Origin: Pelagerythrobacter rhizovicinus
Lineage (GTDB): Bacteria; Pseudomonadota; Alphaproteobacteria; Sphingomonadales; Sphingomonadaceae
NCBI RefSeq assembly: GCF_004135625.1
Contig: NZ_SDPV01000001.1
Coordinates: 1,300,501-1,364,500, forward strand
Reading direction: 5' to 3'
Length of the DNA stretch: 64,000 nucleotides
The notes beneath the pieces are model-generated. The model was given only the letters and a program-made list of their open reading frames with translations, was not told the origin of the DNA and did not search any database. The position numbers were made by a program, and so were the translations under genes. Positions 272 to 26,315 of this stretch are shown one piece after another. Each line of letters opens with the position of its first letter. Within the stretch, counting starts at the first letter, position 1.

Positions 272-3200
272 TCAGTTGTGAGCGTAGCGGCTGGGTTCGA
301 TCATGATCGTGCGGTCGTCGATCAGCACCGCCCGCAAGCGATTGCGAAGAAGCCGTGAGATCGCCTGCTTGAGGGTCATCGACCCACGAAGGGGAGCGGT
401 CCTGAAGTTGGCTGCGACATCGGTGCTGTAGAGGATGTTGTATCCAGACAGCCCGCCTATCTGCTGCATCGCCTCGTCAAGGTTCGTCGCCGCAATCTCG
501 ACGTGCATTTTGCGTTCGGGCCAGGTCGGCTGCTGCCGGTCCGCTTCGGCCCGCTCTGCCCGCGAAGGCGTCGCATTCGAGGATTGTGAGGCACCCGGCG
601 CGCACGCCTCGCGTCGGTCCCCCTCGCCGCAATCGCCATATCCGGTGACGCGAACCTCGATGATCGAGGGCGTGGTCGCGGCCGCGTTCTGGCGAACGGT
701 TTCGGTGAGGCTTTCGAGAAGGTTGCTGCCAAGCAGCGACTTGCTGCCGAGGTCGCCCACGTCCAGCGACGTGGGCGGTGCGGCCGGCGCCTCGGGCAGA
801 CCGGTCGTGCGGCCGGCCACGTCGATGTTGTCCGCCCCGAGGATTTCGATGGCGAAGACGTTGAGGTTGCCCGAGACGCGGATGCCCGCATCCCCCGCAT
901 CGACGACGCCATAGTTCGCGACCAGATCGACGTCGGCGGGCGGCACGCCCGGGGTGGACGCCAGCGTGCCGATGCCGGCACCGGTCGGCAGACCGGCGGG
1001 CGAGCGGGTGAAGTTGGCGAGTTCGTCGATATGCCGTTCGAAGTAGGGCGGCGTCATCGAGGTTTTGGCGCCGTTGCCCGCGGCAATGCTGCCGAACGAC
1101 GACCACATCATGATATTGCCGCCCTGGGTGGTGAGCACGCGGGACTGGTTCACATCCTGGTCCCCATGGGTGAGGACGTTCACCTCGCCGCCGCCCTGCG
1201 TGACGATACCGGCGCGCAAGGCATCGCCCTGTGGGTTGGTCTCCGACGGCTGGCCGGTCTGATCGGCATTGGCCGCCGCGCTGGCGAGGCGGAAGAAGCC
1301 CCCCGGCGCAACCACCGAGACATCGCCGCCGGCGTTGGAGAGGATCCGGCTGGCGAAGGTCTCGAAGTTGCCCGCCCAGCGGGATTCGCCGTCCGCCAGC
1401 TGCTCGTCGGCGGCCTTCTGCGCGCCCGGGTAAAGCGTACCGATGGCCGTGTAGCCCCGGTTCACCGAACCCTGGCGTTCGTTGTCGGGATCGTTTGCCT
1501 CCCGGCTGGCGGTGCGCAGTTCAAGGAACAGCGCCGAGCGATAGAAGGGCGCCTTGTAGGCATTGTCCAGACCCTCCCAGTACGCCAGCGCCTCATCCAT
1601 GTAGGCGCGCTGCTCCTGCGCGGTCTCCAGCGGCTCCAGCCCCTGCATCTCACGCACGTAGTTGACGAGGCCCTGGCGCCGCTCCGGCAGGAAGAATTCG
1701 CCCCGCAGCCGCTCGGCCTGTGCCTGCTGGGCCGTGTAGCGCGGCACCAGAGTGTCGTAGGGCGTTTCCTGCGAGGCCGGAAGGGCGAGCCAGTACTCCC
1801 AGGCCTGTTCCAGGTAACCGCGCTGGGCCTCCTCCCCGGCCAGCGGCTCGAGCCCCTGAAGCGAGCGGATGTAGTTTACGAAGCCACCGGCCATGTCCTC
1901 GCTCACCAGTTCCACGGTCGCGCCGTTGCCGCGGGCGTAGAAGCGGTCGAACAGGTACATGGGCATTTTCTCGCCGTCGCCCAGTTCACCGAGCAGGTAA
2001 TCGGCCATCGCCCCGGCATTCGCCGGATCGAAATAGGCGGCGTCGAACTCCTCGTAGGATGGCTGCTGATTGTAGCCGACGCTGATGGCGACCGTCGCCC
2101 CCTTCATGTCCGGATCGAATGGGACGTTCACAACCGCGTTGCTGCTGTTGCGCCCGAGGTCCAAAAGCGTGTCAGCGGTAATGCCTTCGGAATTGTTGGG
2201 GATCCAGAGATCGGTTCCGGCCTCGATCTCAAGCCTGCCTTGCCCGCGAATGTGCACTTGGCTGCCGGTCCTCAAGTTGCTTGAGCCGGCGGCCGACGAG
2301 ATAGTGCCGAAATAGATGCCCGCGCCCGCGGTGATCAGGCTGACGTCCTTCGGGTTGTTATGCTGGATGATAACGTTGGGGAAATAGACGTCGCTGCCGG
2401 CCTTCATCCAGAGCTGCTCGGCCGAAGCGATGCCGCTGATTCCGATGATGTCCCCGGCACCGGCATAGATCCGGCTGGGTTCGAAATCGCCCTCATGCAA
2501 CAGGAGATGGCGTTCGTTCCAACTCTGAGTCCCCTCGCCGTATACGCTGGGGGTCATCATATAGATGCCGTCCAAATGGTTGCGGTAATTGTTCTGGTGT
2601 TTGCGCAAGTTCCACGCAGAGTCACCAACATTTCGCGGCGCCGCGTCCTCGAGACGCGTGTAGTGGCCGATGCGGACATTGTTCTGCGCCAGAATGTCGA
2701 GATTCCCGTCTGGCGCCGGAGCAATTCGGAAACCGCCTTCCACATTCACATCGCCGCCCGCAGCGACCATCTCCACCGTACCGGGCCAGATCTGACCCTC
2801 CATAGAGTTGTAGCTGCCGCGGCCGACGGCGTTGATCCCATTGGGGCTGTGGGTCGTGACGTAGTAGGGAAAGTAGGGGCCGAAAGTGTCGTCTTCGAAA
2901 CCGGTCATCATGCGGGCGGAGCCAATGTTGGCATCATTGTTCCAGGCAATGATGTCGCCGCCGGCCGAATAGAGCGAGACGCTGGCTTCCGCGCCGCCCG
3001 TGGCCGTTTCCACATTCAGGTCGCCCGCGGCTTCCACCCGAAGGCTGCCGGCTTCCCCGATGTCGAACATCGTGTAGAGCGGATAGGCGCGCAGAACAGG
3101 GGTAGGATCGATGCTAGGGTCGCACCCGCGATAGACGTCGGTGATGTCGCAATCGGCATATGGTGGCTGCGGATCGCTCGTGCGGTCGTAAACCCGCACC

Positions 3201-6200
3201 ACGCTTCCCGACAGGATCGACCCGCCGGCGACCACGGTGCCGTTGCCGGTGATGCGGTAGATGCCGCCCAATATGTCGCCGCCGGCCCGCACCTCCAGGT
3301 CCCGGGCCGAGACCGTGAGGTTGCGAATGGCACCGCCGGCGGTGATAACTGCCTGACCATCGGTGATGATGTCGGTCACGATGGTCTTGGCCATCGCATC
3401 ATGCGCCACCACGTCGCCGCCGACCGCAACGGAAATCCGTGATCCCAATCCGGTCGCCTGAATGGACGAGGGGCGCTGCTCCAGCACCAGATCCCGGCCC
3501 GCCGCAACCTGCACTGAGCCGGAGCCGGTGCTGACCCGATACCCGACCGGATCATAGGTCTGGGCCATGTATGGCTGGCGGAAACCCAGCGACGTCCTAC
3601 CGATCCAGGGCAGAAGTTTGCGCGCATAGATGTCCGTGTCGGCGTATTCGCTCGCGCCCTCGGCATATTTGACGAGTTGCTTCTCGCCGCTCTCGTCCAG
3701 ATAATAATAGAAGCCAGTCACAATGTCGCGGTCCAGCTCCGCGCCCAGTGAGCCGTCCTCGTTCACGTAGAATAGGGCACTCTCTTGGCCATTGACCCGC
3801 AAGTAATAGGGGGCGGCTGGCACGGCCATTGTCGGAATTGGCACGACGGCGTCGTAGAACACTTCCGGATACTCACCAATCAGCCGGACCAGCCGCACAT
3901 AAGCATCTTTTCCGGTGGCATTACCGTCGTAGAAGCCACTGCTGCCGTGGCCGATTGCCTGATACTCTGCCAGATCTGCGCCGCTGAGACTGCCCGCGTA
4001 TTCGGCCCCTATCAGGTTATCGAGATCTTGATATGCACCGTCGTAGTCCATGCTTGGGGCAAAAAGGTAAGGATATTCATCAAGTAGGAGCTCAACCAAG
4101 TTGTATAGCGTCTCTTCCGGCGTATCCCCCCGGGATGCACGATCGATGGCCCTGTATTCGTCGTTTGTAATTTCTCCCGGATTGCGATGCCCTAGGACGA
4201 TATTCATGAATACAGAGCTTACTGCGCCTCCATAGCTTGGAACATCCAATTCTCCCACAATCACCGACATGTCGTAATCGAATGGGCTGAGCCCGGCATA
4301 GTCGAGCTGATCGGCCTCGCCGCCGATGATGACGGAGCCCTTGCCGTCGGCGAGCTGACCGGCGGAGAGCACCGCCAGGGAGGAGGGGCTCTCCAGATTG
4401 GCGCCGCCCACCAGATTGACGTTCCAGCTCCACGGCGCGTCCGTGGCGCTGTCGGTCAAGTTGGCGTTGATCAGCATATCGCCCGCGGCCCGCAGCGAGA
4501 GGACACCGGCGACCTGGTCCGCGCCGTAGCGCATGGCGGCCAGGTCCCAATCGTCGGTCAGCTCGACATCGCCGTCGTTGCGGATGTCGATGCCCGGCAC
4601 CAGGGTGACCGAGCCCAGACGCGCCTGCACGTTGTTCGCCGCCGCGGCCTCCATGAACGCCGTCGCATCCGCCGCGACTGCGGCCGCCACGTCTCTGTCG
4701 ATCACTTCGACGCCGTCGTAGACGCGGTAGGCTTCGGCAATGGCCCTGTCGGCTCCGGTCACGGTTCCTGCCAGGGAGTCGATGGCGACATCGCCATCGC
4801 CGATCTGCGGGGCGCGGAAGTGAACGGTGCCGCCGCGATCCTCGGCCCCACTCACGTCGATGCGCGCGCCACTGGCCATGGCGATCCGCCCGCCGTTGGC
4901 ACCGGCGGTTTCGATCTTCACAAGGCCGCCCGCGCCCTCTTCCGCCTCGGCGGCGGCGATCAGGGCGGACGACCCGCCCAGGGTGACATCGTTTGAGGCC
5001 GCAAGCCTGATGTCGCCGCCATTGGCGCCGACCGTGCGCACCGTGCCGGTCACATCGATCGTGCCGTTGTGGGCGATCACCGAGAGGCTTTCCACCTCGG
5101 TGACACCATCCAGCGTGACGCTGCCGGACAGGATCTCGAAGCTGCGGTCGCCGTTGAGGCCGCCCGCCGCCAGGGTGGAACTGAGGGCCGCGAAATCGGC
5201 CAGGGTGCCGATCCGCAAGGCGAAATCACCGGCCGACTTGCCCTCGCTCGCACCGCCCTTGAGCGCGCCGTTCAGCACCGCCTGGCCCTGCGGCACCACG
5301 ATGGCCAGCGAACCGGCGTTCCCCGCCGCGCCGCCGGAGATGTCGAGCACCGCGTCCGCGTTCTGCACCACATTGCCCCGGTCGGCCGTCAGGTTGATCG
5401 CCCCGGCGTTCAGGCCGATGGTCCGGTCGAACAGCTCGAAGGCCGTGCCGGAGACATCGATACCGCTGCCTTGCGCCAGGGTGACGTCCCCTGCGGTTGC
5501 CCGCAGGTTCACGGTGCCGGCATGCAGGCTGATCTGCCCGTTGTGCGTGATGCTGGTGCCGGTGAACGACAGGGTCGCGCCGAGCGAGTTCCGGCTCGCC
5601 TGCTCCGCCCCCGCGATGCTGTCGATGGTGATCGCGCCGCCGGCGTTGACCGCCAGCACATCGCCGTTGTCCACACTGATCTGACCGGCCTCGATCGCGA
5701 GCGCGCCGGGAACATTCAGCCCGCCCGCATCCTGGCCGACCAGCGTCCGCGTCGCCCGCAGCGTGACGCTGTTCGCGCCCGAGATCGCCTTGACGCCGCC
5801 CGTCAGCAGGAGGTCGCGCGCGGAAAGCAGCAGCGACGCCGAGCCGCCGGTCGCCTCCACCGAGCCGCCGTTGCTGTTGGCGAAGGTGAGGGTGCGCGCC
5901 GTGATGCTGGCCGCGCCGCCATCGTTGTCGATCAGCTGGATCTGGCGGGCGTCGAGCGTCAGGTCGCCTTCGGCGGTGAACTCGACCGCACCGTAGAAGT
6001 CGATGCTGGAGTAGCTCTTCAGAGCCAAATCCTGCGCATTGGCCAGCATGCTGGCGCTGTCGCCCGCGAAGACCAGCCCGCCCGTGCCGGCCGGGGCCGC
6101 GCCGATGCTCACCTGCGAGGCGGCAGCGGTGATCTGGTCTGCCGCCAGGTCGGTACCGGCGGACAGAGTGGTTTCGCGCGTGCCATCGAGCACCACCGAG

Positions 6201-9200
6201 CGGCCGGCCAGGCGCACGCCTTCTTCGATCGCAAGAACGCCTCCGGCCGGGTCGATCTCCTGCATGCCCCGATCACGCCGCTGAGCGTTGATCGCCGCGA
6301 GACGGGCCGGGTCGGCGCGCAGGGCGGCCATCGCATCGATCGCCACCTCGTCGCGCAGGAAGTCGGCACGGTCGCCCGCTGAGACATGCAGGACCGCGCC
6401 CTGATCCAGCTCTCCGTGGAGGAAATTCTCCGACGACCCGGATCCCACGATGAACTCGCCGAGAACCGGTACCAGCGCATAGCTGTCCGTCGCAGAGGCA
6501 AGCTCGCCGGTTGCTTCGACGATCGAGCCCGACTTGACCGTGACACCGTTCTGAGCGGTGAAGATCAGGTCTGCGCCCGACAGCACGTCGCCCGCGGTAT
6601 CGATGACCAGATCGGCCGCCGTGACCTGAATGGCGGTGCCGGTGTCCGTCGCACCGCGCACACCGCCCAGAAGCAGGCTTTCCACGCCGAAGCTCACCAG
6701 CCGGTCCGCGTCAAGCTGAAGATAGCCGTCGTAGCCCGAGCGGTCGGTGCCGGCGCCCGCCACCAGGATGCGCGCGGCGCTGACATCGACGTAACCGCCC
6801 TTGCCACCGTCCATGGCGGCGGCGTTGATCGTGCCGTCCAGCGTCAGGGACGACCCGGCGATCAGGGTCAGACCACCAGCATCCTTCGGCGTGCGCGGCA
6901 GGGAGTCCACCTGCAGGTTGCGCCGCTGGGCGGCCCGCAGGAAGGCATCGGAGTCGAAGTAGGTTGTTGCGCTGGCGAAGTTGTATTGCGAGCGCAGGGA
7001 CAGCACCTCCCGGTCCATGACCAGGAAGCCGTTGGTGAAGGGATCGCGATAGGCCAGGGACCCGTCGGGCCGGGTGGTGAAGCGGTAACCCGCCTGGATG
7101 ATGGACCCATCAGGCTTGGCGGCGGATTCACCCAGCGCGATGTTGCTGTAGTCGCCATACTGGTGGTTGGCCGTGACGCGATAGGCGCCCGGCAGCGCCG
7201 CATATTCGGCCGGCAACAGGGTATATTCACCGGCCGGCAGCCCGCCTTCGGCGCCGGACAGATAGATCTTGCCCAGATCGGGCGCATCATAGAGGTCGCC
7301 GGTGCCGAGCGGGGTCACGCCCGCGTCGTAGCCGGGGATGATCGCATACACCTGCGAGGCGTCGTCCACCCAGCGGTAGTCGTCGTCGCGATAGCCGGTC
7401 AGCCAGTTGTTCGAGCCGCCCACACCGGGCACGAATTCGCTGGCGACCAAGTCACCACCGGCCGAGACATCGACAGTGGCGTTCGCCGCAATGTCGATGA
7501 CATCGGCCTTCAGGCTGACTTCGCGGTCCGGCAGATAGGCCATTTCCCGCTGCGTGAACGGATCGACCCAAGTGTCGCCGTTCTGGAGGGAACCGTAGGG
7601 GATGACGTTGCCGTCCGCCGAAACCGAGGTGATGCTGCCGGGCAGCAGCCTGATCGTGCCCGCCCCTTCGCTACCGTCGTCCACGGCCTCCAGCGTGATC
7701 GACCCGAGCGGGGCGCGGACAATGCCGCCCTGCTCGATGCGCGGCGCGCGCAGCGTCAGGTTGGAGCCGCCTTCCAGGGGCGTCGCATTGACCTTGGTGC
7801 CGGCGTCCGGCCCTTTGATGGTCAGGGTCTTGGCCGCCTCGATGGCGACGTTGCGCCCGGATGCGGCATAGATCTGGTCGGCCTTCAGCGTGAGATTGCC
7901 GTTGGAGCGCAGCAGGCCTTCCGGTGCCGTGTTGTTGGAGGGGTTATAGTTGATCGGGGCAAGACGCAGGTCTCCCCCGCTGATCAGGGTGACGTCTTCG
8001 TAACCGATGAAATCGGCCGAAGTCAGCTCCAGCAGCCGGCCTGCCTCGAGCGTGATCACACCAGTATTCTCCGGGGTGATGCCGATATCGGCCAGCGCGG
8101 CCTCGAACCGCTCCTGATCCACGGTCCCGGAACCGGGCGCGGCGCGGCTGAGCAGGCGGACATGTTCCGCCAGCACCGTGAAGTCTCCGTCATCCCGGGC
8201 GTAGATCCTGGGCGTTCGCAGAGTGACTTCGTCGAGCAGATAGCCGCCGTCCGGCGACCGCGCGCCGAGCGTGGAGGTGCCCGCGATCACCATCGCGCCG
8301 GCCGAGATATCCACCCTGGAGAAACCCCCGGTCACGGGCGACAGGGTCATTGTCGCCTCCCGCTCGGGCAAGGTCGGCAAGATGAAATTCAGCTCCCTGT
8401 AAAGCGGCAGGAAAGTGTGATCGTATTCCGGCAGCTCCCCGTAATCGATCTTGCCGCCAATTTCGCCTTCGCCGATGTAAAGAACCGGCGGCGGCACCTT
8501 GGTTTCCGCCTCGTAGTACGCCTCGAACAGGGCAACGATGGAGTCCACGTCGGGAAGATAGGTCCCTTCCGGAAAATCCAGCCCCTCCATGCCAGATCGA
8601 TCGAAATCGACCGTCGAAAGGTCGACGCCGACCAGACCCTGATGCCCGGTGCCATCCTTCAGCGTGTACCACGTCGAGGTCAGCGAATTGCGCAGCCACA
8701 GGGGATTGCGATGGTTCAGCTTCTCATAGCGGCCGCTGTGCCACTGCAGGCGGAAGGTGCCGCCCCGCGCGCCTTCTCCGCCAGCGAAGGCACGGAACGT
8801 GGCATTGTTCACATCGATATTGCCGCCGAACAGGTTGATCAGGCCGCCATCGGACGCGATCGTCTTGGGCCGGAGCGATACCGCGCCGTTTTCCCGGACC
8901 GGCACATGGACCTGTGCGCTGGTGCCGGAGACATCGAGAATGGCGCCTTTCTCGATCACGAGCGGCTCAGCGCCGCGGGAGCTGGCAATCTCGCCGCCGC
9001 TGAGCACGTCACCGAGGATCACTTCGTTGCCGCCGCCGTCGATCCGGCGATCCGTGATCCGCAACGCGCCCTGCGCCAGCACGCGCGCGGTCGAGGCAAG
9101 ATGCCCGCTCAGCTCGATCGTGCCTGCGGGGGCAATCAGGGTGCCCGCAAGATCGCCGTGGAAAATGATGCGCCCACCCGGGTTCACCTCCAGCGAGGCA

Positions 9201-13333: not shown

Positions 13334-13386
13334 GGGTGAATTCCTGTGAGAGTGCGCTGCCGTTAGTGTTGAGATCGCAGTTGACG

Positions 13387-13839
13387 TCAGTTGTTCTGGG
13401 CAGACTGCTCGTTCTGCTTCTGCAAACTGGGCGGCGGTGTTCCGGGATAGATTCGCACCGCGTGCGCGCGATCGACGTAGTCCTGCTGAAGGTTCTCCAT
13501 CTTAACCCTGGCGGTCTGCAGGAACGGCTCGACCGAACGCTTGCTCAGCCCTTTCTCGATCACCTCCACGGCGAGTTCGTAGAGCTGGGCGTTCCGCTCG
13601 ATCCCGAGGGCGATCAGTTCGTCCTTGAGCGCCAGTTCGGCTCGCAGTCGGGCCACTTGCTGCCGCGCGTTCTCGGCCACTCGCTTCGCGCGTGCGAGCT
13701 CCCCCTCGAGGCGCGCAATTCGCGCTTCGACGGGCGGCGTTTCGGCCGTTCCCCCAGCTTGGGGCTCGGCGCCCGCGCCCTGCGCGGCGACCGGCGCGGC
13801 GAGTAGGGCGAGCGGCATCATCAATACGATGTGTTTCAT
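13387..13839 (-). CDS. Small periplasmic coiled-coil protein
   Basis: This 150-residue protein has a clear signal peptide (MKHIVLMMPLALLAAPVAAQ) and a Pro/Glu-rich spacer. From about residue 38 follows a charged heptad-like helix (ARIARLEGELARAKRVAENA...) that probably forms a coiled coil. The C-terminus is PGTPPPSLQKQNEQSAQNN. A purine-rich GAGGGGGGATCC precedes the ATG. The gene lies 10 bp after the porin-like gene and 53 bp before the exoprotein gene, so it is co-transcribed with the secretion cluster. I do not recognise a family. A periplasmic adaptor or chaperone for the secreted protein is an inference from position and coiled-coil character only. Confidence 0.75.
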   Translation of the reverse strand: MKHIVLMMPLALLAAPVAAQGAGAEPQAGGTAETPPVEARIARLEGELARAKRVAENARQQVARLRAELALKDELIALGIERNAQLYELAVEVIEKGLSKRSVEPFLQTARVKMENLQQDYVDRAHAVRIYPGTPPPSLQKQNEQSAQNN

Positions 13840-13849
13840 GGATCCCCCC

Positions 13850-15397
13850 TCAGAACCGCGAGTTCAACTCGACTTGGAGTATGTCGACGGAGAACGGCGC
13901 TCGGTTGATGGAGTCGGACGACATCCAGCGCAGGCCCAAGGTCGTATTTTTGTGGATCCCTACCGATCCCTCGAGCTCATATCCCTCAACATCGGTACCT
14001 CCGAGGCCGAAGTCGGAATCTGTAAAGATATCCATGACAGCGTCGGTCTCCACGCGCCGATAGGCGGCAGCGACGCGCCACTCGCCAAGGTTCGAGATCA
14101 CCGGATGACCGGCCTCGAACCGAGCGTGCCAGCCCAGATCGCCAGGCGTGACGCCGTCACCGGCCTCCTCTCCGCGCAGGGAAACGATCTCGGCACGGTC
14201 GAGCGCCAGATTTCTCACCACCTCGCCGGTGAGCTTGAACGTGAGCGGCCCCGCCCGATAGCCAAGCTCTGCGGTACCGGCGAGCAGCTCGAATTCCGAA
14301 GCCAGGCCGGCAAGCGTGGTGAGCCCGTCCGTGCGCATGTTGAACAGGGAGTTGCCCTGCCGCAGATAAGCTGGCGCGCTCCAGTCGTTAACCCGCGAGC
14401 CGTCCGCCGGATTCTTCAAGCTCTGAACATTGTCGAACAGATAGTAGGCGATGCCCGTGCTGGCGAACATGGCCGCACCCGTGTCGTATGACGCGCCAAG
14501 CTGGCCGGCATAGAGATAGGCGTCCGGGTAGATCTCCCGCTCACTCAGCGGGAAAAGCCCCCCCGTCGCGAACAGCCCGAGGCCCATTTCGAGCTTTCGA
14601 TCGACGGCGAGCGCCACGCCTTCGGGATTGATATCGGCGTCCCACACCAAGCTGGTCGAATAGAATGGGTTGGACATGCGCCCCGCGACCAGGTGAGCGC
14701 CCTGAAGAGGCTCTATGTCGATGAAGGCGCGATCGACCCACAAAGTGTTGCGATCGAAGTAGTTGCCGAAGGTGGAATTGGTCGAAACCGCGCCGGGTTC
14801 ATCGCCCGAAGCCAAGCGCAATCCGACCTGAATACCGTCCGCGACCCGCGCCTCGAAGTTCAGCCGCGCCCGATAGCTCACCCGCTCCCGGTCCACCGTC
14901 GAGTTGAGAAGCGGAAATCCCTGGGCGTCCGTCACCCCGCCAAGCTGGTTGATGGCATTGGCGTCGGGGAAGCTCGGGAAGTTGCCGTCAGCAAAGTTGT
15001 CATACTGACCGCGCACCCGCAGGTCGCCCGAAATGCGGACGGCATTCACCCAATCGGGCAGGGTGTTGGGGGAAACCCACCCTTCTTCCTTGGCCGTCTG
15101 GACGACTTCGTTCCGCACCTCGTTCTTGATCTCGTCCCGAACGGTCTCGGGCACATAGGGCACATTGACGACGTCTTCTGCCTTCGCCGCAGCCTCTGTT
15201 TCCGCGCGAAGAGCAGCGTTCTCGCGGGCCCTGTCGAGAATGGACTGCGCCTTCTCGAACGGGATCACCCCTTCATCGACCAGAAGCTGGAGTATCTCGA
15301 CCCCGACGTCGTCGGTCGATTGCGCCATCGCTGGCGTCGGACCAAGCATGGCAAGCGCAATTGCCGAACTTCCCAGGAGAACCTTTGTCTTGAGCAT
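13850..15397 (-). CDS. Putative porin-like outer-membrane beta-barrel with N-terminal helical region
   Basis: A 515-residue outer-membrane protein. I place the start at the ATG at 15397-15395, because MLKTKVLLGSSAIALAMLG...AMAQ is a clean signal peptide preceded by GAGGATTGAA. An in-frame ATG at 15487 overlaps the upstream stop as TGATG and could give a 545-residue form with a 30-residue extension. After the signal comes a helical, charged stretch (SILDRARENAALRAETEAAAKAEDVV). Alternating amphipathic strands follow (ISGDLRVRGQYDNF, RARLNFEARVADGIQVGLRLASGDEPG) and end in the aromatic VELNSRF. This matches the putative-porin type with an SLH/coiled-coil-like N-terminus. Its place between tpsB and the exoprotein suggests an accessory outer-membrane channel, but no substrate can be read from the sequence. 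Confidence 0.82.
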   Translation of the reverse strand: MLKTKVLLGSSAIALAMLGPTPAMAQSTDDVGVEILQLLVDEGVIPFEKAQSILDRARENAALRAETEAAAKAEDVVNVPYVPETVRDEIKNEVRNEVVQTAKEEGWVSPNTLPDWVNAVRISGDLRVRGQYDNFADGNFPSFPDANAINQLGGVTDAQGFPLLNSTVDRERVSYRARLNFEARVADGIQVGLRLASGDEPGAVSTNSTFGNYFDRNTLWVDRAFIDIEPLQGAHLVAGRMSNPFYSTSLVWDADINPEGVALAVDRKLEMGLGLFATGGLFPLSEREIYPDAYLYAGQLGASYDTGAAMFASTGIAYYLFDNVQSLKNPADGSRVNDWSAPAYLRQGNSLFNMRTDGLTTLAGLASEFELLAGTAELGYRAGPLTFKLTGEVVRNLALDRAEIVSLRGEEAGDGVTPGDLGWHARFEAGHPVISNLGEWRVAAAYRRVETDAVMDIFTDSDFGLGGTDVEGYELEGSVGIHKNTTLGLRWMSSDSINRAPFSVDILQVELNSRF

Positions 15398-15486
15398 TTC
15401 AATCCTCGCTAGATTGGTGTCGGCGCCGTTCACGCGCGCCGCCGGAATGGTGGTTGTCTGATCTTTGGTGAGGCGGATCCTGGCCA

Positions 15487-17109
15487 TCAGAACTGCTCCC
15501 AGACCCTGAACTGGATGCGGAACCCGTCACCGAAGTCCGAAAGGGTGGCCTCTTCATCGACCAGCGGCCGCGAGACGCTCACCACGCCGTTGAGTCCGTA
15601 ATCGAGTTGGAGCCTGAGGCCGCCGCCAACGCTTAGAAGGCGCATGTGCTCGTCCTGGACGCTCAGCGGATCGTGGATTCTGGCGTATCCACCGTCGACA
15701 AAGGTGAAGAAGCGCAGTTGCTTGACGAGGTCGGAATTGTGCAGAGACGGCGTATCGATCTGGAACTGGCCTGAAATGCCGTCATCGCCCAGGTTGAAGC
15801 TTTCGTAATATCCGCGAACGCTGTCGTAGCCGCCGAGCGCGAACTGCTCATTGGAGATCAGCGGTTCTCCGGCATATTGCCACTGGATCGAACCACCGAC
15901 CCGCCAGTCGTTCAACTTGCGGGTGTAAGAAGCGTCACCGCGCAAGACGGACCAGTTCGCATTCGCGTTGAAGCGCTTGAGTCCGAACTCGATATCGTCG
16001 GCGGCAAGCCCCCGAAGGCCAAACGCCGCGCCGATGCCGAGATCGAAGTCGAATGTCTCTGTTCGCTTCGACAAGGCGTAGCGAAGCATCAGGGGGATGT
16101 AATCGATCGGTGTGTATGAGGCGCTGTCCTCATTTTCCGCGAGGAGGTTCTCCTTAAAGTTCTTGTAATCGACCCCGGCCGTGAACTGATGGACGGTCGG
16201 TGAAGCAGGATCGCCGGAAATACTGGAGTAGATCGCCCGCAGGCCGAGGATATCGCCTTTACCGAGGACGTTGATGCCGCCCAGTGCGGCAACGTCGCTG
16301 TCGGTATGAACCCCGTAAGCAACAAGCGTGATCGGCGTGTTGGGAATCGGCGCGGCATAAGAGGCCGAGACCGCCCAGGATTCGCTCGGGTCCTCAGGGC
16401 TCATCTGCCCCTGCAGGCTCAGGCTGTGGTCGAGCTGGAAGAGATTGGCATATGTAAGCGAGCCCGAGAGCTTGAGACGCTCGGTATTGGAACTCGCTCG
16501 GTCGTTTAGCTCGAGGGTGCCGTGCAGCGGCAACTTGTCTTCCACGAGCAGATCGATGTCGACCGTTCCAGGTTCGAGGCCCGCTCTCAGGGTCGGGGCG
16601 ACAACCCTGTCTTGGGACCTGTTGATCCTGGCGAGATCGTCTGAAAGCTCGTTATAGTTGGGAACCTCGCCTTCTTCGAGCGAAGGGACACGTTCGCCGA
16701 TGTCCTCGGGCGAATAGTAGGTTGCGCCGTCCACCCGCAGGCGGCCGACCCGCATCTCCACCACTTTGAGGCGAATGTTCCCGCCTTGGACTTCCTGGGC
16801 AGGAATAACGACGTTGACGGTTTCGAACCCTTTCGCGTGATACGCTTCCATCAAGGCGGTACGCGCCGCATCGACGTCGGAGAGCGGCCTCTGTGAGCCC
16901 AGAAAGGGCATCACCGCCTGCTCGATCTCCTTGCGGGAAAGGACGCTGTTGCCCTCGACCTGATAGTTCAGGATGTCGACCCGGCGATCGGCAGCTGGCG
17001 CAGCAGCGCCCTCGGTCGGAGGCGTCTCTGCGTCCTGCGCATGGAGCGCCGGGGCAAAGACAATGCTCAGGGCCAGTGCACTGACGCAGTGAGCCGTGCG
17101 AAAAATCAT
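15487..17109 (-). CDS. ShlB/FhaC/HecB-family two-partner secretion translocator (TpsB)
   Basis: A 540-residue Omp85-superfamily transporter that would export the exoprotein across the outer membrane. I choose the ATG at 17109: it gives a proper signal peptide (MIFRTAHCVSALALSIVFAPALHAQ) and follows TTGGAG, whereas the longer frame to 17196 adds a basic non-signal extension. A POTRA region spans about residues 45-120 (VDILNYQVEGNSVLSRKEIEQAV) with a second at about 120-195 (LKVVEMRVGRLRVDG). The ShlB-type barrel follows, with the conserved-type strands NEQFALGGYDSVRGYYE and FFTFVDGGYARI and a C-terminal Phe (FRVWEQF). The stop overlaps the first possible ATG of the next gene, implying translational coupling. 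Position makes the 4353-residue protein its likely substrate. Confidence 0.92.
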   Translation of the reverse strand: MIFRTAHCVSALALSIVFAPALHAQDAETPPTEGAAAPAADRRVDILNYQVEGNSVLSRKEIEQAVMPFLGSQRPLSDVDAARTALMEAYHAKGFETVNVVIPAQEVQGGNIRLKVVEMRVGRLRVDGATYYSPEDIGERVPSLEEGEVPNYNELSDDLARINRSQDRVVAPTLRAGLEPGTVDIDLLVEDKLPLHGTLELNDRASSNTERLKLSGSLTYANLFQLDHSLSLQGQMSPEDPSESWAVSASYAAPIPNTPITLVAYGVHTDSDVAALGGINVLGKGDILGLRAIYSSISGDPASPTVHQFTAGVDYKNFKENLLAENEDSASYTPIDYIPLMLRYALSKRTETFDFDLGIGAAFGLRGLAADDIEFGLKRFNANANWSVLRGDASYTRKLNDWRVGGSIQWQYAGEPLISNEQFALGGYDSVRGYYESFNLGDDGISGQFQIDTPSLHNSDLVKQLRFFTFVDGGYARIHDPLSVQDEHMRLLSVGGGLRLQLDYGLNGVVSVSRPLVDEEATLSDFGDGFRIQFRVWEQF

Positions 17110-17192
17110 CGAATGCTCCAAATCATGTTCGTGCGTGCGTCGGCCGAGACGCCTCCCGCCCAATTGGCGCGCGCCGCGGATCGGCAGGCCGC

Positions 17193-17897
17193 TCAACTTC
17201 GCCTCATGTCGATTGTCGCGTAGGTCGTGGCCGCCTGCTCCGCCGGACGGCGGACGTTGAGCGGCGGCAGGTTGCTCAGCACATCCCGGATGGCCGCATC
17301 GAGTTCTTGATCGCCGGTGGTGGTGCGCAAGGCTGCGCGAGTGAACCGCCCAGCATCAGAAATAACGACCGTGACGTCCACCGATCCCTTTGCCGCCCGC
17401 GTTCGAGGGTCGCGCATCAGTGCGCGGCGGATATGGCCTTCGACATAGGCGCCCCATTCGCCGCCCCCGCGCCCGCCGCCGGTTCCGCGGCCGAACAGCC
17501 CCCCGCCGCCGCCTGCCGCGAGGCGGAAATTATCGGAGCCCGCGTCGGCAGGACGGTCGAGGCCCGCCAGCTGGTTCGATGCAGTGCTGGGTTCGGGCGC
17601 ATCCTGCGGCTGGTCGACTGGTTCTTCGCTCGGCGTCTCGCTGGGCGGCTCCTCGCTCGGCTCGACGATCTCCTCTTCCTCTTCCATGATCGGTTCTTCC
17701 GGCTCCGGTTCGGGAGGCGGCGGAGGCTGGAGCATCTCGATCTCGGTGACGAAGCGTTCGGTGCTCGGCGCCCCCTCGCCGTCCGGCCAGATCAGCCAAG
17801 CCAGCAGGCCGAGCAAGACGATCGGGGCGAGGATTGCTCCCGCCTGGCGGGCGCGCCCCTTCCCCTCGGACCGGGAGGTGGGGACTTGCTCGCTCAT
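17193..17897 (-). CDS. TonB-like energy transducer with acidic proline-rich linker
   Basis: A 234-residue inner-membrane-anchored protein. The ATG at 17897 overlaps the exbD stop as ATGA, which fixes the start. A basic cytoplasmic tail is followed by one membrane segment (GAILAPIVLLGLLAWLIWP). Next is a long Pro/Glu linker (PPPPPEPEPEEPIMEEEEE), a Gly-rich hinge (AAGGGGGLFGRGTGGG) and a TonB/TolA-like C-terminal domain (VEGHIRRALMRDPRTRAAKGSVDVTV...). Most TonB linkers are Pro-Lys as well as Pro-Glu; this one is almost wholly acidic. It would couple ExbB-ExbD to an outer-membrane partner. The expected partner in the operon is unusual: there is no TonB-dependent receptor in it, only TpsB, a porin-like barrel and the STN-bearing exoprotein. 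Confidence 0.88.
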   Translation of the reverse strand: MSEQVPTSRSEGKGRARQAGAILAPIVLLGLLAWLIWPDGEGAPSTERFVTEIEMLQPPPPPEPEPEEPIMEEEEEIVEPSEEPPSETPSEEPVDQPQDAPEPSTASNQLAGLDRPADAGSDNFRLAAGGGGGLFGRGTGGGRGGGEWGAYVEGHIRRALMRDPRTRAAKGSVDVTVVISDAGRFTRAALRTTTGDQELDAAIRDVLSNLPPLNVRRPAEQAATTYATIDMRRS

Positions 17898-18301
17898 GAC
17901 GGGCGCACTCGTTCGCTGACGAGGCCGAGCTGGCTGATGCCGACGCGGTTGCACACGTCGAGCACTTCCATGATCCGGCCGTACTGGGTGACCCGGTCGC
18001 CCTTCACCACCACCGGGAACTCCTCGGTCGTCGCCTTGAAGGTGCGCAGCTGCGATTCCAGCTCGTCGAGCGTCACCGCGAAGGTATCGAGATAGATCTG
18101 CCCCTGCTCGTCGATGGTGATTGCCTTGGTCGTCGGCTTGGCCAGGCTCACCGACGAGCTCGCCTTGGGTACGTTGACCTTGATCCCCTGCACCGCCGCC
18201 GTGGTCAGCAGGATGAAGATGATCAGCAGCACCAGGGTGAGATCGACCATCGGCGTGACGTTGATCTCGTCATAGGGCTTGCGCTTCTTCTGGACGTGCA
18301 T
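17894..18301 (-). CDS. exbD: ExbD/TolR-type proton-channel subunit
   Basis: A 135-residue biopolymer-transport protein. It has the ExbD pattern: a cytoplasmic basic N-terminus (MHVQKKRKPYDEINVTPMVD), a single membrane helix carrying the conserved Asp (MVDLTLVLLIIFILLTTA), and a periplasmic domain ending in GRIMEVLDVCNRVGISQLGLVSER. With the ExbB-like protein it should form the inner-membrane stator that uses the proton gradient to drive the TonB-like protein. It lies 24 bp after exbB, and its stop overlaps the tonB start by ATGA, so the three are a tight operon. Confidence 0.95.
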   Translation of the reverse strand: MHVQKKRKPYDEINVTPMVDLTLVLLIIFILLTTAAVQGIKVNVPKASSSVSLAKPTTKAITIDEQGQIYLDTFAVTLDELESQLRTFKATTEEFPVVVKGDRVTQYGRIMEVLDVCNRVGISQLGLVSERVRPS

Positions 18302-18325
18302 CGCTCGTCTCCCCTCTCTCGTGCG

Positions 18326-20095
18326 TCAGGCTGCGGCGGCGGCGAGGGACGGTCGGTAGGTTTCGGCGATGCGCTTCTCGAGCTCGTCGACGAAGACCTG
18401 GTTATCGATCTCGATCTTCTCGACCCGGGAGAGCAGCCAGTTGTATCCGAATAGCGCAGGGATCGCGACCGCAAGGCCCGCCACGGTCGCCAGCAAGGCG
18501 GCGGCGATGCCTGGCGCGATCGCGTTGATGTTGACGTCACCCGCGGCCGCAACGCCGGCAAAGGTGATCATCACCCCGATCACCGTGCCGAGCAGGCCCA
18601 GGAACGGTCCGCCGGAGATGGCGATCGTCAGCAGCACCATGCGCGCGTTCAGCCGCTGGCCCTCGCGGGCCATCTCCGCGTCCATCGCCGCGCGGATCGC
18701 TGCCACCGACTGCGGCGCGAGGGCGAACTGGTCGCGCGCCGAACGGCGCCCTTCGGCCAGGCGCTGGCGCGTCTCCTCGCGTCCGACGGCAAACAAGCGG
18801 CCCAGCGTCGAGACTTCCGGCCAGCTCAGCTTGTCCGAGTTGACCAGCCCGTCATGCAGCCCCGCTTCACCCGAGTTGCGGCGGAACTCCCGGCGGAATG
18901 TTTCGTTCGCGCGCTCCACCCGCGACAACAGTCCCGCTTTCAGCACCATCACCGCAATGGCGATGGCCAGCATTACCGCTAGAATTGCTATCACGATCCA
19001 GGCGTCGAGCGTCAGCGCGCCGAACAGAATGCCGAGATAGTTGTGCTCGCCGCTTTCGCCGGCTTCCTGTGCCTCTCCACTGACCTGAACCACGGTGGCA
19101 TCCCGCCCCTGCGAGTTGGCAGCGAAGGCGATGAAGTCCGCAGAACGCGCGGTGTTGGCGCGCCACACTTCGTCCACATCGCCCATGAAGCCGGGAAGCT
19201 CGCCATTGGCGCCGATGATCTCGCCGCCGCCCAAGGCTGGGAGGTCCGCCGCCAGCTGCGCCACCTCGTTGCCATCGACATAGAGCCGCACGGCGCCTTC
19301 TCCGGCGGTCACCGCCAGGTGCGCCCAGCTGCCGGAAGGAAGCGGCGCCTGCGCCGCCGCCTCTGCACCGTTGACGCTGACGTAAGGCGTCGCTCCGCGC
19401 AGGCCGATCACCAGGCGCGAACCCGCCTCACCGAGCTTGGTGTAAATAGCCGCCTCGGCTGGCAGTTGGTTATCCGGCTTGATCCAGGCCGACACGGTCA
19501 TGCCGCCGCCGGCGGGCACAGTGAGCGACTGGCTCCCCGCCACCTGCATCTGGTTTTCGGCACCGAAGCGCGCACCGCCGGCGACCAGTCCTTCGGGAAT
19601 CAGCTGCCCCGAGAAGCTGCCGATCGCGTTGGCATTGGCCGTCTCGTCGCGCGGACTCGCGCCATCGGCGAAGTGGACGACCAGCGACTGCTCGCCGTCA
19701 TATGTATCCGCCGGCGACAGGGCCGCAGAAGCTTCGCCGTTGCCGTAATAGGCATAGATCGTCTGGCTCCCGGAAGAGACCTCCGGCAGCTTCACCCAGG
19801 CAAGGGCGATCTCCGCCTGCCGGTTGAAGCTCTCCAGGTGGAAATCCAGCGGCGTGCCGTCCGCCGTGACGAAGCGCAGATCGCTGCCGTCGTCCTGCAG
19901 GCGGGTGAAATCGACGTTTCCGGCATGAAGGCGAACGAGAACCGGGGCATTGTCGATCTCGTCGCCGACGACCCCCTCGGCATTGACGGAGATCGCCTGG
20001 CGATACCCCCAGTCGTCGCTCCACCACTCCTGCGCCGATGCCGCACTCGGCACAGCCATCAACATCGCGCACAAGGCGACAAATACTCGCTTCAT
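18326..20095 (-). CDS. exbB: ExbB/TolQ proton channel fused to periplasmic DUF2341 and LamG-like domains
   Basis: A 589-residue fusion. The ATG at 20095 follows GTGGGGGAA and begins a signal peptide (MKRVFVALCAMLMAVPSAASA). A DUF2341 region comes first (about residues 24-130: WWSDDWGYRQAISV, VRLHAGNVDFTRLQDDGSDLRFV). A LamG/concanavalin-like domain occupies about 150-330 (GGGMTVSAWIKPDNQ, LYVDGNEVAQLAA, GFMGDVDEVWRAN). Then come a membrane helix (LDAWIVIAILAVMLAIAIAV) and a MotA/TolQ/ExbB domain with two further helices (GGPFLGLLGTVIGVMITF and IAAALLATVAGLAVAIPALF). Ordinary ExbB is about 230-330 residues; the extra half faces the periplasm and has a carbohydrate-binding-like fold. This is the first gene of the operon. 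The fusion is plainly real because the frame is continuous. Confidence 0.92.
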   Translation of the reverse strand: MKRVFVALCAMLMAVPSAASAQEWWSDDWGYRQAISVNAEGVVGDEIDNAPVLVRLHAGNVDFTRLQDDGSDLRFVTADGTPLDFHLESFNRQAEIALAWVKLPEVSSGSQTIYAYYGNGEASAALSPADTYDGEQSLVVHFADGASPRDETANANAIGSFSGQLIPEGLVAGGARFGAENQMQVAGSQSLTVPAGGGMTVSAWIKPDNQLPAEAAIYTKLGEAGSRLVIGLRGATPYVSVNGAEAAAQAPLPSGSWAHLAVTAGEGAVRLYVDGNEVAQLAADLPALGGGEIIGANGELPGFMGDVDEVWRANTARSADFIAFAANSQGRDATVVQVSGEAQEAGESGEHNYLGILFGALTLDAWIVIAILAVMLAIAIAVMVLKAGLLSRVERANETFRREFRRNSGEAGLHDGLVNSDKLSWPEVSTLGRLFAVGREETRQRLAEGRRSARDQFALAPQSVAAIRAAMDAEMAREGQRLNARMVLLTIAISGGPFLGLLGTVIGVMITFAGVAAAGDVNINAIAPGIAAALLATVAGLAVAIPALFGYNWLLSRVEKIEIDNQVFVDELEKRIAETYRPSLAAAAA

Positions 20096-20660
20096 TTCCC
20101 CCACTCCAGGTTTGAGGATTAGATTGGAAACCGGCCACGCCGCCGGTCGGCACGATGCCTCCCGAGCCACCGAATTACGCAGGACACCAAGCGTACTTGC
20201 CCACCGATCCGCGGTCGGCATCGCCGTTGCGCATGCGAATTCAAGGGATTCAAAAGGCCCCCTAAGTCAATACAAATAACCAGACCCTTTCTTGCGAGGT
20301 CTGATAGATTCGCTGTATTTCAAGTTTAAGACTCAGTCAGCCTTTTTTGGGTGTATATTATCAGAATATCTTGGAAATACTTAAATATTTTATGCGCGCC
20401 AAACCTCTCCAGCCCACTTGAACTAGAGATGCCTCTTCTTTCGAGTAACTCTTATTTTAAAACGCCCGGCCTACTGGCCGCCGCCCCTACACCCCCAAGG
20501 ACGTCGGACTCGCGAGAACCCGCACCACCTTTTTCAGGGCTTGAATGCTGGCCGAAACGCTGAAGCGGCCGTGCCGCACTATCACTGGCCACGCCGACTC
20601 CAGGCTCCAGACGGCGCGCCGCAAGTCCACATCATCGAAGCGGTATCGAAACGCTGCCGA
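20096..20660. other. Regulatory gap between fecR and the secretion operon
   Basis: No gene is visible. Bases about 20265-20460 are clearly more AT-rich than their surroundings and lie upstream of the exbB start, so the operon promoter is probably here. A perfect 6-bp inverted repeat (CAGACC, 11-base spacer, GGTCTG) sits at 20281-20303 and could be an operator. No sigma-70 promoter is obvious, which would fit recognition by the neighbouring ECF sigma factor. Confidence 0.5.
20452..20480 (-). terminator. Candidate terminator of the fecI-fecR pair
   Basis: On the minus strand CGGCC-AGTA-GGCCG (20480-20467) forms a 5-bp GC stem with a 4-base loop. It is followed by GGCGTTTTAAAATAA, a short T-run. 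It lies about 180 bp after the fecR stop and before the exbB operon, where separate transcription units would be expected. Confidence 0.4.
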
Positions 20661-21647
20661 TCAAGGCTCGATCAGATATCGATCGTCCAATCGGACGAGA
20701 CGGAGTCCGCATATCCTCGCCAGGCTATTGGCAAAGCGCTCCGTATCGGCGACGCGAAACACGCCGCTTACTTGACACTGCTCAGTGCTGACGGAGGGAT
20801 CGAGCGTTATCGGTTTTCGCCCGTAGCGGTTCATTTCGCGCACCGCAGCGACCGCGGACATATCCTGCAGAATCAATCTCCCGTCGCGCCAAGCCGTCAC
20901 AGCTGGAAGCGAGGGCTTATCGACCGTGGCGGAGCCGGTCACACCAAGCCGCACTCTTTGACCGGGCGCCATGATGAAGCTCGCCTGACCCGATTTCTGG
21001 GGATCCACGAGGACGCTGCCGGAGAGGAGCGTGACCTCCATTACATCCTGCCAGTCACGAACGACAAATTTCGTCCCCAGCGCTGTCACCCTGCCCAGAC
21101 GGGTCTGCACGACAAACGGACGATCTGGATCTTTGCTTACTTCGAATAGCGCCTCGCCGCGATCGAGCATGATCAACCGCTCGCTCCCCGTAAACCGCGC
21201 GGACAGTCGCGAATTCGTGTTCAGCGTCACACGCGAGGCATCCGGGAGGGAAGCAACTTGCCGGCCCCCGACCGGTGTCTCGAAAATCGTCGGACTGGTG
21301 ATCCGGAGATGCCAGGCAAACACGAGCATCAATGTAGCGACCGCAGCCGCGATGCCAGCAGCAACCGGCCAGGTGCGCGCTCTCGTCAATCCCGATCCGG
21401 CGCGGCCGCCCTCACCACCCCTCTGAGGATCCGCAGCTCGAGCAGCTGCAACGCCCGAACTGTAGAAGGATAGCGCGGCAACGTGCTCGAGGTCGGACCA
21501 CAGCGCCTCCATCTCGGCCAACGCTGCGGCGTTGGCCGGCCGCTCGCCACGCCAGCTGGCCAGCCCGCAATGTCCTTCTGGACTGCGCGCGTCATCGCCC
21601 AGGCGCGCAAACCAGACGGCCGCTTCGGCTTCAGCTCTTCCGGTCAA
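20661..21647 (-). CDS. FecR-like anti-sigma factor with STN/DUF4974-like C-terminus
   Basis: A single-pass membrane anti-sigma factor. The N-terminal DUF4880-type domain reads EAEAAVWFARLGDDARSPEG...LASWRGERPANAAALAEMEALW. One membrane helix follows (PVAAGIAAAVATLMLVFAWHL), then a FecR domain (TPVGGRQVASLPDASRVTLN, RGEALFEVSKDPDRPFVVQT, LGTKFVVRD). The C-terminus resembles STN/DUF4974 (GRLILQDMSAVAAVREMNRY...VSGVFRVADTERFANSLARI). I give the TTG at 21647, just before the conserved region. The frame also opens at an ATG at 21728, inside fecI. The ATG overlapping the fecI stop (TGATGAATG) is out of frame and stops after six codons, which may mean a one-base change in a CCTCCC run. It should hold FecI inactive until a periplasmic signal arrives. 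Confidence 0.85.
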   Translation of the reverse strand: MTGRAEAEAAVWFARLGDDARSPEGHCGLASWRGERPANAAALAEMEALWSDLEHVAALSFYSSGVAAARAADPQRGGEGGRAGSGLTRARTWPVAAGIAAAVATLMLVFAWHLRITSPTIFETPVGGRQVASLPDASRVTLNTNSRLSARFTGSERLIMLDRGEALFEVSKDPDRPFVVQTRLGRVTALGTKFVVRDWQDVMEVTLLSGSVLVDPQKSGQASFIMAPGQRVRLGVTGSATVDKPSLPAVTAWRDGRLILQDMSAVAAVREMNRYGRKPITLDPSVSTEQCQVSGVFRVADTERFANSLARICGLRLVRLDDRYLIEP

Positions 21648-21663
21648 GGGAGGCCAACATTCA

Positions 21664-22152
21664 TCAGAAGTTCCGCATCCAGGACGAGAGTGACACCATA
21701 GCTTTGGCAAACCGCTTCTCGACCGCACTCACACTGAGGCCTTCTCGCAGCGCAATCTCCCGCATCGACAGCCCCTCGATGCGCCGCGCCTTGACGATCG
21801 AGCGGGTTATGGGGTCGAGCCGCTCAAACCCCATGGCGAGATACTCGAGCCGACTTCGTCCGATCGCGACCCGCTCCGGGTCGGGCAAATCATCGACGAG
21901 GGGCAGGTCCTCCACCGGCTCCGAAACAAGATCCAAACGCTCCGCGCGCCGGCCGGCGTCGATCGACAGATTGACTGCCGTTCGCACCAAAAACCCTTCC
22001 TCTCTCGCGACATCGTTTTCTTTACTGTACTGCAAAAGGCGAAGAAACGCCTCCTGAACGAGCTCCTCAGCCTCGGAATCGGATAGACCCCTCTTCTTCA
22101 AAATCGTACCAAGACGCGGCGCGAATCTCTTGAAGAGGGACATCTGAGTCAC
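21664..22152 (-). CDS. FecI-family ECF RNA polymerase sigma factor
   Basis: A 162-residue ECF sigma factor. Region 2 reads SDSEAEELVQEAFLRLLQYSKEN...EGFLVRTAVNLSIDAGRRAER. Region 4 reads FERLDPITRSIVKARRIEGLSMREIALREGLSVSAVEKRFAKAM. The start is a GTG at 22152 or an ATG three codons later (22143); neither has a strong ribosome binding site. It is immediately upstream of the FecR-like gene. By position its likely target is the exbB-to-exoprotein operon beginning 2.05 kb further along the same strand. That target is inference. Confidence 0.9.
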   Translation of the reverse strand: MTQMSLFKRFAPRLGTILKKRGLSDSEAEELVQEAFLRLLQYSKENDVAREEGFLVRTAVNLSIDAGRRAERLDLVSEPVEDLPLVDDLPDPERVAIGRSRLEYLAMGFERLDPITRSIVKARRIEGLSMREIALREGLSVSAVEKRFAKAMVSLSSWMRNF

Positions 22153-22378
22153 TGGCCCGACTCATTAGACATGGCTCGTGCCCTGCCAGCCGGGCATGAC
22201 AAAGCGATTTCATTCACCCCTCGCAGACTTTCACAGAACGCACGGAACCCCGGGTACTCACTTCCAAGGACGTTCCCTCACGCCAAAACCACACATGAAA
22301 ATTCAACTTCGAGGTCGCAGTTCGGAGCCGCTCCGCCAGGAAAACGACGAATACGCGCACCCGCGCCGGCAGGTGCTG

Positions 22379-23242: not shown

Positions 23243-23905
23243 TCGTGTCGCAGCACTGAGCCTGGAGCTCACGCGCGCAATCGAGCGGCAGGACTAAGAG
23301 CCGATTCCTTACAGAACGTTGATGTTGGTGCTTTGATCGAGTGCGGAAGTGTAAGCTTTAAGTCGGACCATTCCCAAGGCGAATGACTTTGTAGGCAAGC
23401 TGCCTCTGGGCTGATTGGAACCACCATAGCGCCCCTCACCCGACCTCGTCTGATGATCGAACCGCCAACGATATACATTGGAGATGAGCCGCTTCGCGCC
23501 GCCGTACTCGATCGTCGGAGACTGGGCTTCAATTGCCCCGAGAGCGGACATCAGTTGCTGAAGCTGGAACGGCCGCAAAGTTCGACAAAGCCGACGTTCG
23601 CGGCGCTTCGCCTGAGCGTCGAAACCGGCCGCTCATTCACGCGGCTAGGTATGGCACCTTCTGGGCCGTGAGCTGACGGCAGCTTTCAGCAGCGAAAAGC
23701 GGGATTGCTGCCCTTCGTGGCGTGCGGGTAGCTGTGTCAGCTCACGACTCCAAGTGCGTAGAAAATTGCTGCGCGGACAGGTTTCCTCACCGTGTCGTCC
23801 CGCCCGATGCTGACCGGCGGTTTCATCGTGCCGCAATCGAACAGCCTCTTGAGCGTCACATATCGCGCATAGCTGCGCCCCCGAGCCTCAGGATCGGGAG
23901 CCACT
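23243..23905. other. Gene-free stretch with a decayed repeat
   Basis: Only short, unconvincing frames are present. Bases 23584-23650 match a degenerate repeat seen elsewhere in the window (GACAAAGCCG ... GAAACCGGCCGCTCATTCACGC). Bases 23660-23720 contain a related palindrome-like stretch (CTGACGGCAGCTTTCAGCAG). The promoter of the TonB-dependent receptor gene should lie at the right end, but I cannot pick it out. Confidence 0.5.
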
Positions 23906-26284: not shown

Positions 26285-26315
26285 GGTGGAACGGACGAGC
26301 AGAAGGAGAACCGAA

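Follow-up and report, generated by a model that had tools for sequence, protein, structure and literature searches.

A two-partner secretion exoprotein with a predicted transducer-type signalling domain, encoded beside an ExbB-ExbD-TonB motor and a FecI/FecR pair

What do a proton-driven ExbB-ExbD-TonB motor and a sigma factor/regulator pair of the FecI/FecR type do beside the genes of a two-partner secretion (TPS) system? The question is raised by a 64,000-nucleotide stretch of the Pelagerythrobacter rhizovicinus genome (bases 1300501-1364500 of contig 1; the genome comprises 3.0 Mb in three contigs), hereafter the window, whose minus strand carries, from 22143 to 272, the genes fecI, fecR, exbB, exbD, tonB, tpsB, a porin gene, a gene for a small coiled-coil-like protein and tpsA. 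An initial annotation of this DNA had proposed that the motor serves release, retraction or signalling of a giant exoprotein, and had left open whether related clusters were on record. One is: the association of TPS with such a motor was published for Pseudomonas aeruginosa in 2009 (PMC2729926), and later work described one sigma-VreI operon (PMC4971064, 2016). Since papers from 2009 on describe the association, the link between TPS and motor is a rediscovery; the new part is a TPS exoprotein with a transducer signalling domain (STN), a family-wide tail strand and paired cysteines, none of which appeared among the open-access papers that our searches listed. Our explanation is that the locus is a PUMA3/PdtAB-type system, named after its P. 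aeruginosa counterpart, in which the exoprotein may have assumed the transducer's role in cell-surface signalling and may be acted on, itself or through TpsB, by a dedicated motor; we hold this explanation tentatively, at somewhat below an even chance. Statements on published systems throughout draw on parts of the papers cited.

The exoprotein tail and its signalling domain

The last gene of the set, tpsA (272..13333, minus strand, as are all features below unless another strand is given), encodes an exoprotein of 4353 amino acids (aa). Pfam profile scans of the window proteins, from which the gene identities were taken, returned TPS, DUF3739 and STN for it. The TPS match (89 bits) is spread over three N-terminal stretches from residue 82 onward, which suggests that the N-terminus holds repeated partial TPS domains. 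DUF3739 occupies residues 4071-4180 (794..1123), and three elements follow it: a strand PSIIEVRVTGYGD of the form V-x-V-x-G-[FY]-G (residues 4222-4234; 632..670), a C-x8-C cysteine pair that could form an anchor loop (residues 4235-4244; 602..631), and a C-terminal STN signalling domain (about residues 4276-4348; 290..508), which Pfam detected only when the tail was scanned alone. This STN, named by the initial annotation only among its suggested checks, is the most informative feature of the locus. Its predicted structure is well folded, and among the Foldseek top chains, which bound all fold rankings given here, the best matches of the model are the domains of FpvA (13.2), 6ovk_B (12.7), FoxA (12.4), PupA (11.6) and FecA (10.9), with secretin N0 domains lower (at most 9.0). 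The presence of STN on TpsA suggests that the cell monitors the state of the protein it exports.

The conservation of these elements was followed in 72 TpsA tails, i.e., 75 complete distinct tails minus three L193 pieces that are broken or out-of-frame copies. The valines and glycines of the tail strand are kept in 69, 62, 66 and 63 tails (V, V, G and G, respectively), and the strict pattern occurs in 61 of the 72, against 2.7 expected after shuffling. Cysteines behind the strand come as two (22 tails) or none (50 tails), never as one, and the pair is present in all five tails with a fused STN. The fusion itself is found in 5/72 tails, to which S. gei and Sphingomonas ERG5 were added later; the six intact fused systems form one ExbB clade with a support of 100 (FastTree, 107 rows) and ExbB branches of up to 0.44.

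The partner expected of such a domain is encoded at the other end of the locus. Residues 151-344 of FecR (20661..21728; Pfam FecR and DUF4880) match the C-terminal cell-surface signalling domain of PupR (PDB 6ovk_R, E 2.5e-15), a protein that binds the signalling domain of PupB (PMC7186176). Thus, of the parts that typify cell-surface signalling, the sequence has a FecR with a periplasmic domain of the receptor-binding type and an STN carrier, namely TpsA, and lacks a beta-barrel receptor as transducer. Coupling between STN and FecR is likely on these sequence features, and signalling is the one of the three originally proposed roles that gains support from them.

A comparison with other lineages bears on the same point. 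By an adjacency rule, a VreA-like open reading frame (ORF) with STN lies beside fecI at 39 of 49 non-fused fecI-fecR pairs as against none of the five fused ones (p 0.001), counts in which some species may figure twice, in which the rule missed the VreA-like genes of G1024 C24, G1102 C14 and L235, and in which the non-hits include L168, cut by a contig end, as well as L156 and L157 of the fused group, whose TpsA lies outside the locus. In four of five VreA-like ORFs, Pfam scans showed STN together with TonB_2, close to the cut-off, a domain arrangement known from published VreA; the fifth showed TonB_2 alone. In the window, no STN gene was found beside fecI and no separate VreA was seen. A domain such as STN, which sits on a gene of its own in one lineage and is built into TpsA in another, hints at cooperation between the two products.

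Three further observations touch on these proteins. Inspection by eye of the VreA-like ORFs of L198, L203, L194, L158 and L192 showed box-like strings (e.g., DTLRVTAP and LGTLRVRG) in the linker that joins STN to the TonB-like domain, so that VreA may be donor and binder of a strand alike. Besides its tail pair, the window TpsA has just two cysteines, residues 3395 and 3404, which make up another C-x8-C pair well upstream of the tail. On contig 8 of G569, from the same genus, the locus has decayed to an 819-aa TpsA end with STN; motor genes were not found in the stretches read there, nor DUF2341 in the genome, and after its fecI-fecR pair comes a receptor gene that itself encodes an STN.

The module, its motor and its transcription units

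Every gene named by the initial annotation was recovered in the single orientation it gave, by Pfam, by sequence or, for tonB, by predicted structure. The FecI-type extracytoplasmic function (ECF) sigma factor (21664..22143; Pfam Sigma70_r2 and Sigma70_r4_2) is taken to start at MSLFKR, with a GTG at 22152 as an alternative longer start. ExbB (18326..20095; Pfam DUF2341, Laminin_G_3 and MotA_ExbB) has a signal peptide, periplasmic DUF2341 and LamG domains and a TolQ/ExbB channel; DUF2341 on ExbB-like proteins has been listed as an unknown appendage (PMC12505986). It is followed by exbD (17894..18301; Pfam ExbD/TolR, 101.8 bits), tonB (17193..17897), tpsB (15487..17109; Pfam POTRA_2 and ShlB; CdiB 6wim, E 2.2e-13), the porin gene (13850..15487; Pfam Porin_5, 456 bits) and the gene for the small secreted coiled-coil-like protein (13387..13839), identified from its sequence and matching no Pfam family over the cut-off. 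The type Vb pair is thus represented by a TpsB with POTRA and a ShlB-type barrel and a TpsA with an N-terminal TPS domain. As the initial annotation held, the operon proteins include no TonB-dependent receptor (no Plug or receptor barrel in the Pfam scan). Genome-wide there are five MotA/ExbB-type matches, 43 Plug matches and one DUF3739 match, so that this motor is one of several and TpsA is single.

The TPS and ExbB-ExbD-TonB cluster is a conserved module. DUF3739 scored over the cut-off in 5 of 385 genomes sampled from the class, 13 of 396 from the order and 14 of 398 from the phylum, 28 of them distinct, and DUF2341 is present in 26 of these 28; in the order sample it occurs in 12/13 genomes with DUF3739 versus 10/383 without (Fisher p 3e-16). 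The two DUF3739 genomes without it are G1024 and G569, the latter with the decayed TpsA. Among 586 named exbB relatives, the 80 best, whose record titles place them in alpha-, beta- and gammaproteobacteria and in a few further phyla, have ExbD in 80 cases, TonB in 77, porin in 72, TpsB in 51 and DUF3739 in 31 within at most 10 kilobases (kb), many of the contigs being cut. Five of these 80 loci lack both TpsB and DUF3739 in the stretch covered; DUF3739 is present elsewhere in the two genomes checked (L163 and L170), as it is in all nine hand-chosen genomes searched, those two included. The full tpsB-exbB-exbD-tonB-porin set was also seen in the flanks read of G169, G355, G886 and G1058, in some apart from any TpsA. 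Gene order varies, tpsB standing first in many loci and after tonB in the window, and the set remains together; the co-location is far beyond chance. The initial annotation had asked for this co-occurrence search and had counted non-conserved neighbours against itself: the neighbours are conserved, and its proton motor serving a giant exoprotein fits the comparative data, as an association that is not new.

The motor itself leans toward the Tol system. The ExbB profile is nearer to TolQ than to ExbB in the PDB (E 1.8e-31 and 4.8e-19, respectively). In tonB the TonB_2 match (17.7 bits) lies under the 22-bit cut-off, and its identity is backed by the predicted structure: with a transmembrane helix, a Pro-rich spacer and a C-terminal domain whose fold ranks 1-25 are nearly all TolA and TonB domains on re-examination, it has the parts of the TonB/TolA family, the predicted domain being nearer to TolA domain III than to TonB. 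A TonB-box matrix was built from 30 of the genome's 43 receptors, whose own boxes score 9.1-27.3; against this range the best scores in the porin and in TpsB are -0.3 and 0.6, and both were rejected as carriers of a TonB box.

The genes probably form two transcripts. From exbB to tpsA the junctions are, in order, 24 base pairs (bp), an ATGA overlap, 83 bp, a TGATG overlap, 10 bp and 53 bp, the TGATG overlap assuming the first possible porin start (its signal-peptide start lies 90 bp further in). The overlaps and gaps under 90 bp described initially therefore stand for this part. Between fecR and exbB, with the exbB start taken at the signal peptide (20095), the spacing is 565 bp, and this gap contains a promoter-like box GACGTCCTTGGGGGTG (20490..20505), so that fecI-fecR is probably transcribed on its own, rather than fused into one operon with the rest as the initial annotation had it. 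A similar box AACGTCCTTGGAAGTG lies upstream of fecI (22259..22274). The common pattern RACGTCCTTGGNNGTG has two exact matches in the genome, these two by construction, as it was derived from them; five sites have one mismatch, and the reversed control gave zero. On this pattern a FecI regulon scattered over the genome was rejected, both exact copies lying at the locus. Two relatives, G603 and G727, hold a similar box in the fecR-exbB gap; as for the box upstream of fecI, G727 retains it and the copy in G603 is weaker. On these sequence data we read fecIR and exbB-to-tpsA as two transcription units, both under FecI. Also upstream of fecI, at about 22170-22210, lies a direct repeat YTGTCAY-N6-CTGGCA common to G603 and G727, the spacing of which is not that of a pho box.

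Several neighbours deserve mention. A TnsA-like endonuclease ORF (22379-23272; PF08722, 51.8 bits) lies immediately upstream of fecI, which suggests a mobile-element boundary. About 1.8 kb from fecI, a TonB-dependent receptor gene (23906-26284, plus strand) stands beside a PhoD-like phosphatase gene (together 23906-27971, plus strand), a possible phosphate-acquisition pair close to a system with a phosphate-controlled counterpart in P. aeruginosa. Past the window edge, right after tpsA, are a SapC-family gene and a gene that, judged by eye, resembles one for a periplasmic Skp/OmpH-type chaperone (L236 11899-12765 and 11288-12295, minus strand); SapC homologues adjoin tpsA also in G603, G640, G727, G616 and G604.

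Proposed mechanism and its alternatives

Gene content, linkage, the TpsA STN, the PupR-like domain of FecR, the tail motif, the cysteine pairing and the shared box come from sequence and models; from them we infer periplasmic retention, an STN-FecR contact, a motor-tail contact and the direction of the signal. TpsB would export TpsA with the N-terminus first, and the C-terminus would remain periplasmic, with the cysteine loop probably tethering it to TpsB as reported for HMW1 and HxuA. This periplasmic tail would bear the conserved beta-strand motif and, in this clade, STN, which would bind the PupR-like periplasmic domain of FecR. FecR could then detect if TpsA is seated in its transporter, and in what manner, and FecI would adjust how strongly fecIR and the exbB-to-tpsA operon are transcribed. 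The TolQ/TolA-like ExbB-ExbD-TonB motor would act on the anchored tail or on TpsB and thereby tension, retract or release TpsA; alternatively, it may couple movement of TpsA to signalling through FecR, as TonB does for receptors. Action of the motor on the TpsA tail is less likely than the STN-FecR coupling. Bolder still, and in our judgement unlikely, is that the exoprotein is the transducer and that a dedicated motor, powered by protons and gripping the conserved C-terminal strand, drives the export, tensioning or retraction of this protein. If true, type Vb secretion would include a branch that runs on protons, and contact outside the cell would be sensed as a pull on a tether of 4000 residues. 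The TolA/TonB-like domain of VreA in other lineages would be an adaptor gripping this strand too, and this would account for the lack of VreA at loci with an STN-bearing TpsA.

A number of observations weigh against an exoprotein transducer with a motor. VreI-dependent expression in low phosphate does not require VreA in P. aeruginosa (PMC4971064, PMC7035377), and in a zebrafish assay, run with overexpressed VreI and with no reading of TpsA, a mutant in PA0695, the tonB gene, matched the wild type (PMC2729926); STN and motor may hence be dispensable for what has been assayed. The Fox system shows that STN can protect an anti-sigma factor (PMC11637429), so that the signal could have either sign. 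The prediction that a VreA-less fecI-fecR locus goes with a fused STN held for S. gei (L157/L263) and failed for the other two tested, L188 and L207, which have neither; two more VreA-less pairs, one each in G1039 and G950, accompany a non-fused TpsA. G1024 has a TpsA without DUF2341, the 20 kb read of G708 contain exbB-exbD-tonB and neither TpsB nor a porin, and the cysteine pair is missing from 50 of the 72 tails. As an ordinary TonB box the tail motif was rejected, with a score of 3.8 on the receptor-derived matrix, and another TpsA stretch outscores it with 10.8; any motor-binding site in the tail would have to be specific to this motor.

Other explanations dispense with one or another of these contacts. 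TpsA might capture an outside substrate, with the motor energising the Porin_5 channel or TpsB to import it as TonB does for receptors; the porin accompanies 72 of the best 80 of 586 exbB loci, almost as regular a member as ExbD, and the adjoining receptor and PhoD phosphatase genes, with the phosphate control known from P. aeruginosa, hint at nutrient acquisition. Porins work without energy, though, neither the porin nor TpsB has a TonB-box-like stretch by the matrix above, and no pho box was found upstream (best candidate with 4 mismatches of 14, in a run without control), so that we consider such uptake improbable. The TolQ-like ExbB and the TolA-like end of TonB would suit a Tol-like envelope device that assembles or stabilises the outer membrane around the huge TpsA-TpsB complex with no pull on TpsA. 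Such a device is less probable again, as TolQRA serves the whole cell, whereas this motor tracks one exoprotein family, and no Pal- or TolB-like gene was found in the operon.

The least probable of the alternatives is that the genes are merely co-regulated and that the TpsA STN is a secretion stop or a fusion remnant. The shared upstream boxes require no more than co-regulation, and the dispensability of VreA in P. aeruginosa under the assayed condition agrees with it; the predicted STN is nonetheless well folded, has transducer domains as its best matches and has been kept across the divergent ExbB branches of the six intact systems.

Comparison with known systems

The window TpsA shares with HMW1/HMW1B and HxuA/HxuB the TPS pair and the C-terminal cysteine pair (C4235-C4244), which in HMW1 and HxuA is reported to hold the TpsA end in the periplasm (PMC5422565). 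It differs in that a dedicated motor, a sigma factor and STN are not described for HMW1/HxuA in the parts of the sources used, and HxuA works with a TonB receptor, HxuC. The Serratia Has system likewise has an ExbB with a periplasmic N-terminal extension tied to a TonB paralogue, HasB, and to signalling; its extension has about 50 residues and is Ala/Pro-rich and disordered (PMC9008036), whereas that of the window ExbB is a folded DUF2341 plus LamG. With FecA-FecR-FecI, FpvA, PupB-PupR and FoxA-FoxR, the locus has in common the sigma/anti-sigma pair, the PupR-like FecR domain, the transducer-type STN and a TonB-type motor. In contrast to these TonB-dependent transducers, the STN carrier is a TPS exoprotein without a beta-barrel receptor, and STN is C-terminal.

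The closest counterpart is the PUMA3/PdtAB system of P. aeruginosa, in which VreI/VreR control pdtA and the operon phdA-pdtB-exbB2-exbD2-tonB4-PA0696-PA0701 (PMC2729926, PMC4971064, PMC7035377), and for which conserved neighbourhoods were reported in Pseudomonas, Burkholderia, Rhodopseudomonas and Janthinobacterium (PMC2729926). The likeness is drawn from papers and gene order, the P. aeruginosa locus not being among the best 80 of 586 exbB relatives. The defining set of a DUF3739 TpsA, TpsB, ExbB, ExbD, TonB and porin with a FecI/FecR-type pair is present in the window, and in both systems an ECF sigma factor and a FecR-type regulator accompany motor genes and tpsB that share one sigma-dependent operon. 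A 2020 paper still called the inducing signal of VreI, the role of VreA and the exbB2-exbD2-tonB4 system unknown or uncharacterised (PMC7035377), so that the partners of PdtA-type proteins and the function of their motor are at stake here. The two systems differ in three ways: pdtA has its own promoter, whereas tpsA is the last gene of the window operon; vreAIR is PhoB-controlled and not self-regulated, whereas the window box precedes both fecI and exbB; and STN resides on a separate VreA in P. aeruginosa, whereas in the window, where no VreA-like gene was seen, it is carried by TpsA.

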